From Trichococcus pasteurii (GTDB taxonomy: Bacteria; Bacillota; Bacilli; Lactobacillales; Aerococcaceae): a DNA stretch of 64,000 nt. Positions within the stretch are counted from its first letter, which is position 1, and each line of letters begins with the position of its first letter. A model generated the notes under the pieces. That model saw only the letters and a program-made list of their open reading frames with translations, searched no databases and was not told the DNA's origin. The position numbers and the translations under genes were made by a program. Of the stretch, positions 14,131 to 53,517 are shown piece by piece. The stretch spans positions 62,001 to 126,000 of the forward strand of contig NZ_FONM01000004.1 of assembly GCF_900112935.1 (NCBI RefSeq), read 5' to 3'.

Positions 14131-14147
14131 TGAATTTCATTTCTCAA

Positions 14148-14234
14148 TCACAATCCCTACGCTCGTGCTAACGAACAGGTTCGAAGGGTCAGAATCTATG
14201 TTCAATCTCAGCCGCGGACGGCCCCCCTTTGTGA
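14148..14234 (-). ncRNA. TPP riboswitch (THI element)
   Basis: The minus strand shows the TPP aptamer core. P1 is TCACAA/TTGTGA, then GGGG-GCC, GGCTGAGA, GACCCTTCGAACCTG and GCGTAGGGA follow in the canonical order, with a P3 extension in between. It precedes thiT, as expected for a thiamine-regulated transporter. Confidence 0.95.
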
Positions 14235-14257
14235 AACGGTCTATTTAGTTACAGCTA

Positions 14258-47672: not shown

Positions 47673-48320
47673 ATGGAGAAAACGACTAAGCGCAAATTGC
47701 TTTTCATCGGCGACAGCATCACAGATGCCGGGCGCAACCGCAACAATCCTGATTCGCTGGGGAAAGGCTATGTGGCTCTGATAGCGAAAGCTCTTGCGGA
47801 TAGAGGCGATTCAGAACGCTACCAGCTGATCAACCGCGGCATCAGCGGCAACCGAATCCTGGATATTGCGGAAAGGTGGCACAGCGACTGTGTTTCGCTT
47901 GAACCTGATGTCGTCACGTTGCTGATCGGCATCAACGATACGTGGCATAATGTCGGTGATGAAACTGTGTTCGCGACCGAAGAGGGTGCGGAACAGTTCG
48001 AAATGCATTACCGCCATTTGCTGGCGTCCTTGCGGAAAAAATCAAATGCACGACTCATTCTGATGGAGCCGTTCGTCTTCCCGTATCCGGAAGACCGCAA
48101 AACGTGGCGGATTGATTTGGATCCGAAGCAGGAAATCGTCAAACGCCTTGCCGAAGAATTCGATGCCGAATGGATCGGTTTGGACGCTTATCTGAATGCG
48201 ATCGGGGCTGCCGAAGGCTATGGAACGTTATCGAATGACGGAGTCCATCCGACGAAGAAAGGGCACCTTCTCATCGCCGACGCTTGGCTGAAGCAATTTG
48301 ATGAGAACGGCAAAAAATAA
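47673..48320 (+). CDS. SGNH/GDSL hydrolase
   Basis: A 215-aa esterase-like protein of the SGNH fold. Block I FIGDSITDAGRN has the catalytic Ser, block II INRGISGNRI the Gly, block III LLIGINDTWHN the Asn, and block V DGVHPTKKGH the Asp and His. No signal peptide is present, so it is probably cytoplasmic; close forms deacetylate oligosaccharides or acyl esters. It begins 9 bp after the glyoxalase stop, likely co-transcribed. Confidence 0.9.
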   Translation: MEKTTKRKLLFIGDSITDAGRNRNNPDSLGKGYVALIAKALADRGDSERYQLINRGISGNRILDIAERWHSDCVSLEPDVVTLLIGINDTWHNVGDETVFATEEGAEQFEMHYRHLLASLRKKSNARLILMEPFVFPYPEDRKTWRIDLDPKQEIVKRLAEEFDAEWIGLDAYLNAIGAAEGYGTLSNDGVHPTKKGHLLIADAWLKQFDENGKK

Positions 48321-48357: not shown

Positions 48358-48386
48358 TTGCTTTCCTGAAGTTGGCATGATAAGAT
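48358..48386 (+). promoter_or_regulatory. Promoter of the structured noncoding RNA
   Basis: TTGCTT (48358-48363), 17-bp spacer, TAAGAT (48381-48386). Transcription would start near 48393. Confidence 0.65.
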
Positions 48387-48392
48387 GTTTTA

Positions 48393-48617
48393 CATGCGAT
48401 GAGGCGACGAGCAATCAGGTGGGTTCGCCCATTCCGCGCAAGCGGCGAAGTGATTGCAAATCAAACGGGACATACGTGCTTGCACAACCACAGGATGTGG
48501 ATGTTTGATGGTGACTGCTGTGAACAGTCCCATCCATGGGTCTTCCCATGCCGTATCAGAAGAAAGGGTCGGAAAGTCGAACACTTAGGTGTTTGCCTTT
48601 CCGGCCCTTTCTTTTTG
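48393..48617 (+). ncRNA. Highly structured noncoding RNA, possibly raiA-motif class
   Basis: About 225 nt between a promoter and an intrinsic terminator, with no convincing ORF. Helices visible: GCAATCA/TGATTGC (48411-48417, 48451-48457) closing TGGG-TTCG-CCCA and CCGC-GCAA-GCGG; ATCAAAC/GTTTGAT (48460-48466, 48503-48509) closing GTGC-TT-GCAC and CCAC-AGGAT-GTGG; then GACTG-CTGTGAA-CAGTC, CATGGG-TCTT-CCCATG, and the terminator. Two successive three-way junctions with stable tetraloops argue for a folded RNA. From memory the layout and the GAGGCGACGAGC segment suggest the raiA motif of Firmicutes; a covariance-model search would decide. Confidence 0.75.
48563..48617 (+). terminator. Terminator of the structured RNA
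   Basis: AAAGGGTCGGAAAG and CTTTCCGGCCCTTT pair, with an inner AACAC/GTGTT-like stem, followed by CTTTTTG. Confidence 0.85.
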
Positions 48618-52233: not shown

Positions 52234-53517
52234 ATGGTAAAAAGAAAACTGTATATCATTTCATTAGATGCATTTGGTGCCAGTGACTTAGAATTTGCCA
52301 AGACGCTGCCCCATTTCCAGGAAATTTTGAACAGAAGCGCACTCGTCAAAGAAGTGGAATCGGTCTACCCGTCTTTGACATACGTAGCTCATACTTCAAT
52401 CGCAACAGGGATGAATCCCAACCGCCATGGAATCATCCATAATACACATCGGCAACCGGAAAGACAGTCACCTGACTGGTATTGGTATGCCAAAGAAATA
52501 AAGAAGGCGACGTTGTTTGATGTCGCCAAGAAGGCGGGATATACAACCTGCGCTTTGCTTTGGCCGGTGACGGGTAAAAGCCCTTCCATCGACTACAACC
52601 TAGCTGAAATTTTTCCGAACAGGCCTTGGCAAAATCAGATGATGGTTTCCGCTTTTGCCTCCAGCACAAAATATGCGCTGGAGATGAACAAAAAATACGG
52701 GTCCTTGCGGAACGGGATAGCCCAACCGGAGTTGGATGAATTTGTGACGGCGATCGCGGTCGACACAATCAAGACGAAACAGCCGGATCTGCTGGCTGTG
52801 CATCTGGTCGATCTGGACAGCATGCGTCATCATTATGGCGTTTTGAGCGATAAAGCGAAAGAAGCCATCGTCAGGATGGATCGCCATCTCGGACAGATCA
52901 TCGGAGCGATGAAAGAAATGGATATCTATGAGGACACCGTGTTGGCAGTTCTGGGCGATCATTATCAGATCGATACGCATACGGTCATCCGCCCGAACCA
53001 CTTGTTTTTGGATAAAGGCTGGCAGACAATCGATCGCAAAAGGAACATCAAGGACTGGAAAGTGCTGGCGAAGGCTGCGGATGGGGCTTGTTATATTTAC
53101 CGGAAAGATGTCAGCATCACCAATAAAATGATCTTGGATGCGTTGAAAGGGATCGAGGGCAGGGTTGAAACCATCCATTCGGCTGCAGAAGCCAGAAAGA
53201 TGGGAGCGGATGAGAATTGCCTCTTCATTCTGGAAGCGAAACCGGGTTATTATTTTGAGAGCGACGTGCTGTATCCTTTCATGGAAAGCACCGCCAAAAA
53301 CCTTCCTGACCGAATCCTGCATAGCGCAACGCACGGCTTCAGCCCGAAAAAGAAAAAATATGCCACGATGCTGATGGTTTCCGGACCCGGAATCGACAAA
53401 GATGCCGTTGTGGAAAAGGGCAGGCTGATAGACGAAGGGCCGACTTTCCTGCATGCAATCGGACTGAAATTTCCGGAAGCCACGGACGGAAGGGTCATCA
53501 ATAAAATATTTCTGTAG
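52234..53517 (+). CDS. Alkaline-phosphatase-superfamily phosphodiesterase
   Basis: A 427-aa protein of the type I nucleotide pyrophosphatase/phosphodiesterase family. Metal ligands are in IISLDAFGASD (Asp) and in VYPSLTYVAHTSIATGMNPNRHGI, where the nucleophilic Thr or Ser lies. Later ligands: VHLVDLDSMRHHYG (Asp, His), LGDHYQID (Asp, His) and ATHGFSP (His). No signal peptide, so it is cytoplasmic. It may act on nucleotides or phosphodiesters. A strong GGAGGGT site precedes the ATG. Divergent from pit-DUF47, so the neighbourhood is phosphate related. Confidence 0.87.
   Translation: MVKRKLYIISLDAFGASDLEFAKTLPHFQEILNRSALVKEVESVYPSLTYVAHTSIATGMNPNRHGIIHNTHRQPERQSPDWYWYAKEIKKATLFDVAKKAGYTTCALLWPVTGKSPSIDYNLAEIFPNRPWQNQMMVSAFASSTKYALEMNKKYGSLRNGIAQPELDEFVTAIAVDTIKTKQPDLLAVHLVDLDSMRHHYGVLSDKAKEAIVRMDRHLGQIIGAMKEMDIYEDTVLAVLGDHYQIDTHTVIRPNHLFLDKGWQTIDRKRNIKDWKVLAKAADGACYIYRKDVSITNKMILDALKGIEGRVETIHSAAEARKMGADENCLFILEAKPGYYFESDVLYPFMESTAKNLPDRILHSATHGFSPKKKKYATMLMVSGPGIDKDAVVEKGRLIDEGPTFLHAIGLKFPEATDGRVINKIFL

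Follow-up and report, generated by a model that had tools for sequence, protein, structure and literature searches.

A single-copy structured RNA of Trichococcus pasteurii unites the Ref68 and asd families and may pair with 23S rRNA

The Locus and Its Features

The window analyzed here is the whole stretch of 64,000 nucleotides of Trichococcus pasteurii DNA (contig NZ_FONM01000004.1, positions 62,001 to 126,000), and all coordinates below count from its first letter. A GDSL esterase gene (47673-48320) lies directly 5' of a segment in which a sequence-only reading had proposed an independent, highly structured RNA between a TTGCTT-17-TAAGAT promoter and an intrinsic terminator. Both ends are borne out, as the promoter is present on direct reading and the terminator appears as a hairpin plus T run in the fold of the segment. 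The TTCG, GCAA, and TCTT loops it had pointed out are likewise all found in the folds. The features are as follows.

48358..48386 (+): promoter TTGCTT-17-TAAGAT with an extended -10 TG; direct reading, placement kept in homologues
48395..48407 (+): near-invariant 5' tail TGCGATGAGGCGA; conservation in homologues, 23S complementarity
48411..48457 (+): P1 domain, a three-way junction with TTCG and GCAA hairpins; predicted fold, in agreement with the Ref68 model structure
48465..48468 (+): P2 5' strand ACGG, closing the four-way junction; covarying helix 1, alignment
48469..48505 (+): P3, including the P3a hairpin (48476-48485) and the P3b hairpin (48488-48500); covarying helices 2-4, alignment
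48492-48496 (+): P3b loop AGGAT
48507..48534 (+): P4 hairpin; covarying helices 5-6
48518-48524 (+): P4 loop CTGTGAA with the near-invariant TGTGAA; complementary to the helix 89 tip of relatives' 23S
48535..48550 (+): P5 hairpin CATGGG-TCTT-CCCATG; covarying helix 7
48551..48554 (+): P2 3' strand CCGT; covarying helix 1
48560..48616 (+): intrinsic terminator, hairpin at about 48560-48612 plus T run; predicted fold and reading

The -35 element TTGCTT (48358-48363) and the -10 element TAAGAT (48381-48386) are separated by a 17-nt spacer, and the TG ends one base upstream of the -10. This promoter is absent from the output of a strict consensus scan. Its placement is nonetheless conserved over 86 loci, where the upstream regions show TA...T at the -10 spacing in 85 cases, TGnTA...T in 73 (shuffled upstreams would give about 1.9), and TTG at -35 in 66. 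The sequence TGCGATGAG begins at 48395, downstream of the promoter, and the transcript probably starts 1-3 nt upstream of that position. A simple terminator scan listed P3b instead of the window's terminator. Two open reading frames overlap the RNA (87 aa on the plus strand and 64 aa on the minus strand); base-pair covariation across the stretch speaks against a coding sequence, which was rejected on the basis of the helices. Just 3' of the terminator, between 48620 and 48790, we noticed by eye GC-rich, repeated, and partly palindromic CTCCGGCGAG/CTCGCCGGAG units, which are followed by a DUF4349 gene.

Fold and Covariation

The RNA opens with the 13-nt 5' tail, followed by P1 and by a four-way junction that is closed by P2 and holds P3 (forking into P3a and P3b), P4, and P5, after which comes the terminator. 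Two successive three-way junctions had been proposed from the sequence. The three-way P1 domain stands, but the second unit is the four-way junction closed by ACGG/CCGU, whose arm P3 forks again. P1 is three-way in the window and in Enterococcus and Carnobacterium-type loci; in other relatives it is a single hairpin. In four loci (L049, L078, L083, and L091), a long additional segment at or after P5 brings the RNA to ~190-210 nt before the terminator.

Folding energy favors structure for the 260-nt segment (-105.6 kcal/mol, z -5.2), while the 162-nt core without the terminator reaches only z -1.0. The terminator thus supplies much of the signal, energy alone is weak, and the case for structure rests on comparison. 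The sequence-only reading had staked its proposal on covariation among homologues, and this is indeed what the alignment holds. In 71 rows, 91.1% of 1964 pair cells are standard pairs, compared with 56.8% after shuffling and 34-51% in slid controls; 711 cells are changed on both sides versus 193 in shuffles, and the covariation score is 0.80 versus 0.22, all in an alignment that was fitted to the model. Counting the pairs that show a double change at all separates the alignment poorly from the shuffles (30 of 30 versus 27.3). A control of 8 rows aligned by MAFFT only gave 90.7% paired cells versus 80.7%, and 16 double-change pairs versus 7.5. The full fold, including the 5' tail, the P1 domain, and the P2-P5 four-way junction, is thus backed computationally by covariation. 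At the level of sequence comparison, the predicted structured RNA with a promoter and terminator of its own is confirmed at 48395-48556 (+), in keeping with the independent, highly structured RNA first proposed. The locus would be best explained by an independently transcribed, trans-acting, single-copy RNA of ~165 nt plus terminator.

Family Identity and Distribution

When the whole window was scanned with cmscan against the Rfam models, three matches exceeded the threshold. The best is RF02840 (Ref68) at 48395-48528 (+), with 65 bits against a cut-off of 44 and covering model positions 1-124; the suggestion that an RNA other than raiA would have to be new is thus not right. Elsewhere in the window, cmscan places a TPP riboswitch at 14137-14238 (-), with 61.6 bits. 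Ref68, also known as Enterococcus sRNA 68 or Lacto-3 RNA, shares its 5' end, P1, and P3 with the window RNA. Its model of 124 positions stops in P4 and lacks P2 and P5, whereas the full RNA is longer. The asd/MarS RNA of Streptococcus, on the other hand, shares the tail, a P1 domain, the P2-P5 arrangement (identical in the Rfam asd structure to that found here), the AGGA loop, the UGUGAAC loop, and the terminator with the window RNA, and differs in that its P1 is a single hairpin instead of a three-way junction.

The two families meet at the same places in the genomes. Of 295 genomes of the order, Ref68 is found in 147 (75 of them over the cut-off) and asd (RF01732) in 66 (44 over the cut-off), each with a single match per matching genome. 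Counted from both tables, 32 genomes match both models, and in all 32 the matches overlap on the same contig and strand; the union amounts to 181 of the 295 genomes. Either model may dominate at a shared locus: L004 scores 96.6 bits with Ref68 and 33.5 bits (E 9.3e-5) with asd, L069 scores 135.7 bits with asd and 27.5 bits with Ref68, and at three loci of family f4, which appears to be the Streptococcus-type family, a weak Ref68 match coincides with asd at 122-136 bits. A control genome, Lactococcus lactis, matches both (asd over the cut-off, Ref68 below). The T. pasteurii genome has one copy of the RNA and no asd match at E<=0.001 (the asd cut-off being 84 bits), so we treat its RNA as related to asd within a larger common family rather than as an asd member.

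Two covariance models of our own were used to trace this larger family. R1, built from 8 sequences of the Enterococcaceae-type family f3, gave 67 matches at E<=1 over 65 loci, covering 64 of them (all but L074, several partial or weak) and including three extra short matches. R2 was trained on 30 sequences whose P1 is a single hairpin, with f4 and the window's genus left out. It detects the window RNA (53.9 bits, E 2.5e-13) as well as all 71 chosen loci at E<=0.001. Though trained without f4, it matches all 13 f4 loci tested and finds, by count, 35 f4 genomes; its place is that of asd in 21 of 21 f4 places among the matches listed and in 4 of 4 further f4 genomes from a draw from the class. 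Across the order, R2 matches 188 of 295 genomes with a single match in each, and in the draw from the class it matches 13 of 200 genomes, all 13 in the same order. Some Ref68-positive genomes, for example several of f2, escape it. Weak R2 matches in two genomes of family f8, which lies outside the RNA-carrying families (G094, E 9.6e-4; G156, E 7.2e-4), are probably due to chance.

Ref68/Lacto-3 and asd/MarS are thus, as shown computationally, one RNA, of which the window segment is a further copy. Rfam 15 gives no clan for RF02840 or RF01732, and a literature search at the level of titles and listings found no paper linking Ref68 with asd. Neither the EF0869 sRNA of E. faecalis nor the KhpB-bound sRNAs, both considered as synonyms, could be identified with the Ref68/asd RNA in the parts of the sources available. 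From the available part of PMC7724050, its sRNA_112/sRNA_005 is a candidate for it.

The raiA motif, which resembles the window RNA in size and independent transcription, had been suggested from an impression of the layout only, and we consider this identity next to impossible. RF03072 is not among the window matches up to E 5, and a search of 118 genomes of the order gave no match (nor did any control genome match in it), whereas among 119 genomes of the phylum the same model matches 13, of which 11 are over the cut-off. Conversely, 12 raiA loci and 2 6S loci gave no R2 match at E<=10, so that raiA and the window RNA do not match in either direction. The 6S RNA (RF00013) was also rejected, as the genome's own 6S sits elsewhere (C20).

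Invariant Elements in Varying Neighborhoods

Among the loci listed, the gene neighborhoods differ between families (genes mostly named by eye), so the RNA is expected to act in trans. In E. faecalis the annotated neighbors are a Gfo/Idh oxidoreductase and an antiterminator, and in f4 they are, by eye, asd or pyruvate-kinase genes. A GDSL esterase gene is, again by eye, found upstream in the f6 loci L072-L075 and L077, and L074 has a gene like that at 52234-53517 of the window just 3' of the RNA; this neighborhood is common to the window group and f6.

Over the 71 rows the helix sequences vary freely, and conservation is concentrated in unpaired elements. In the 5' tail, 10 of 13 positions are conserved at 99-100%, and the tail is conserved in 86 loci (31 of which were positioned using part of the tail motif). 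The P4 loop has GUG in 71 of 71 rows and ends in A in 70 of them; the loop of P3b is more variable. Two other readings of the loops were tried and dropped. A tRNA-His-like anticodon mimicry by the P4 loop was rejected because the loop does not sit in the same register on its stem from one species to another in the folds, and a reading of ACAGGAUGU in P3b as a CsrA-type site was discarded since the loop varies (CGGAU and others).

Complementarity to the 23S rRNA

The 13-nt tail is complementary to the 23S rRNA sequence UCGGCUC[A/G]UCGCA, which we take to be E. coli 2506-2518, in the 5' strand of helix 90. Within P4, UGUGAAC is complementary to GUUCACA, 34 nt upstream of the tail site; by helix numbering, both sites presumably belong to helices 89-90 of the peptidyl transferase center. 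Against the 16S and 23S rRNA of G273, the common tail form pairs at 13 of 13 positions (2 G-U) at one site, and the next site has 3 mismatches. Shuffled tails did as well in 32 of 20000 cases, or in 182 of 20000 if any number of G-U pairs is allowed, and an exact site within 60 nt, such as P4 has, exists for 0.35% of shuffled 7-mers; these tail and P4 tests were devised after the idea, so their significance is somewhat overstated. Against the 16S rRNA alone, the tail does no better than shuffles, at a locus with 1249 N of 4559. Two of the extra R1 matches (E 0.8) fall on the minus strand of the 23S gene, exactly at the tail-complementary site, in L082 and L085. In these two f9 loci, the RNA gene itself lies ~1.7-1.9 kb downstream of a 23S-5S rRNA operon.

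Per genome, the tail pairs at 12-13 of its 13 positions. Position 6 forms C-G in E. faecalis, U-A in five genomes, and U-G in G273, where tail position 1 is mismatched. The window and its genus, which make up 7 of 71 aligned rows and 14 of 86 loci, carry G at position 10. The genome's own 23S was not found in the assembly, and the window tail was compared with the 23S of the relative G052, where G10 faces a G and gives one G-G mismatch. A search of the sampled parts of G129, G004, G060, G136, G287, and G098 likewise yielded no 23S.

For stretches of 10-12 nt with at most 2 G-U pairs, every 23S column that is hit in 5 of 6 genomes belongs to the tail site, and both controls give none. At 9 nt and 1 G-U pair, the RNA and one control each have one column hit in 5 of 6 genomes. 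When exact 6-mers antisense to the 23S are required in 6 of 6 genomes, two sites come up: the tip of helix 89 and a CATCGC site elsewhere, at column 2468 in the alignment of the 23S sequences, where all six offer the tail another perfect 6-nt complement. The RNA read backwards, as a control, has 4 such columns, one stretch reaching 8 nt; short invariant matches are therefore no evidence of pairing. The P3b loop matches the 23S at 4 or 5 of 5 positions, but it lacks GGA in part of the rows and is not counted as support.

The P4 loop UGUG[A/G]A is fully complementary to U[U/C]CACA in all seven genomes for which both sequences were at hand, the two variable bases changing together as A-U in four and G-C in three; seven is a small sample, and the counts ignore phylogeny.

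UGUGAA with UUCACA in the same genome: G142, G273, G283, G052
UGUGGA with UCCACA in the same genome: G222, G018, E. faecalis NZ_CP143580

Predictions of the pair held in three of three genomes tested; those for G018 and G052 were written before sequence retrieval, and that for G283 was made before it and recorded only afterwards. Among six genomes with long 23S sequences, 1887 columns are shared and 468 vary, of which 3 show the A/G-type split; one of these is the base paired with P4, and two of the three look like one rRNA base pair. Family f9 holds both P4 states, so the split is not that of one clade. Among the Lactobacillales 23S sequences examined, the stretch varies at GAGU[U/C]CACA and CUC[A/G]UC, opposite the two variable positions of the RNA, and outside the paired parts at CTG[T/A]AG; one-base gaps are present in one L. 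oris record. Records of Bacillus, Listeria, and Staphylococcus contain the same 23S sequences, so the 23S itself was not shaped by the RNA.

That two near-invariant unpaired elements are complementary to the catalytic region of the 23S rRNA suggests an action on the ribosome. Going by these sequences, the chances are evenly divided that this order-wide RNA pairs in trans with, and co-evolves with, the peptidyl transferase center of its own 23S as a functional counterpart of the snoRNA chaperones. Box C/D and H/ACA snoRNAs and U3 pair with rRNA through unpaired elements in eukaryotes and archaea; the likeness concerns the proposed way of working only, since no homology is claimed and no guided modification is known.

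Weighing the Possible Functions

The virulence regulator mga of S. pyogenes offers another way of looking at the RNA. It could be a conventional trans-acting sRNA that pairs with mRNAs through its P4 loop or tail, its rRNA complementarity being due to chance. In the parts of these papers available, MarS shifts mga RNA in vitro, a 2-base change at MarS 88-89 abolishes this binding, and a marS deletion grows normally in rich medium with lower mga expression (PMC5613026), while the S. agalactiae asd RNA varies with growth phase and acid, dropping in late stationary phase and in acid (PMC4448216). In our own alignment, MarS 88-89 are the CC right after UGUGAA beside the P4 loop, and the lost binding means that, as far as that source goes, the P4 region binds RNA in vitro, whichever partner is the main one. 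As a target, however, mga would not explain why tail and loop are invariant across the order, and reliance on mRNAs and chance does not predict the co-variation of P4 with the 23S. Nor did the tail lead to mRNAs: its complementary 16-mers had 13 non-self matches in 9 genomes versus 7 in the backward control, and mRNA targets were dropped when the 11 of these 13 sites that were inspected yielded no convincing one, with none at a translation start and one lying ~65 nt within a putative ORF in two genomes. We regard a purely mRNA-directed sRNA as unlikely.

The same near-invariant unpaired elements on a variable scaffold could be contacts of a protein-bound structural RNA, and the stability of MarS after rifampicin, reported in the available part of PMC5613026, fits this as well. 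Yet the A/G position of P4 changes together with the 23S, which a protein site would not predict, and we deem this explanation improbable.

The best explanation, to which we lean slightly, is a single-copy Ref68/asd RNA with the fold described here whose two elements pair with the 23S rRNA. The stability of MarS and the loss of RNA binding upon the 2-base change beside its P4 loop speak for this as well. In this pairing model, the P4 loop UGUG[A/G]A would make a loop-loop (kissing) contact with the helix 89 tip U[U/C]CACA, the 5' tail would pair with the 5' strand of helix 90, and the variable stems would be a scaffold that sets the spacing of the pairing elements. In the mature ribosome, helices 89 and 90 are themselves base-paired, which we count against rRNA pairing, as we do the normal growth of the marS deletion in rich medium and the publication of mga mRNA as the target. 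The RNA would bind the 23S in the 50S precursor, before this region has folded, and may help or check its folding in a snoRNA-like manner. Such a 50S role is the most likely one, having by itself about one chance in three, and silencing or marking of ribosomes is less likely. The stationary-phase fall of the S. agalactiae RNA would likewise fit ribosome assembly better than ribosome storage. The pairing with mRNAs such as mga in S. pyogenes may then be a secondary use of the same P4 loop.

Future Perspective

The Rfam family was known; new are this copy, the union of two families, and the rRNA-pairing hypothesis. Joining Ref68/Lacto-3 with asd/MarS allows findings in streptococci, enterococci, and lactobacilli to be combined. 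Pairing with the 23S, in turn, is a specific and cheaply testable hypothesis of function that we hold to be about as probable as its opposite. To our knowledge, no bacterial small RNA folds or checks rRNA by pairing, and a literature search with narrow terms and partial coverage found none. If the hypothesis is true, the RNA would be a bacterial snoRNA-like RNA that has so far been known only as two unrelated-looking sRNA families.
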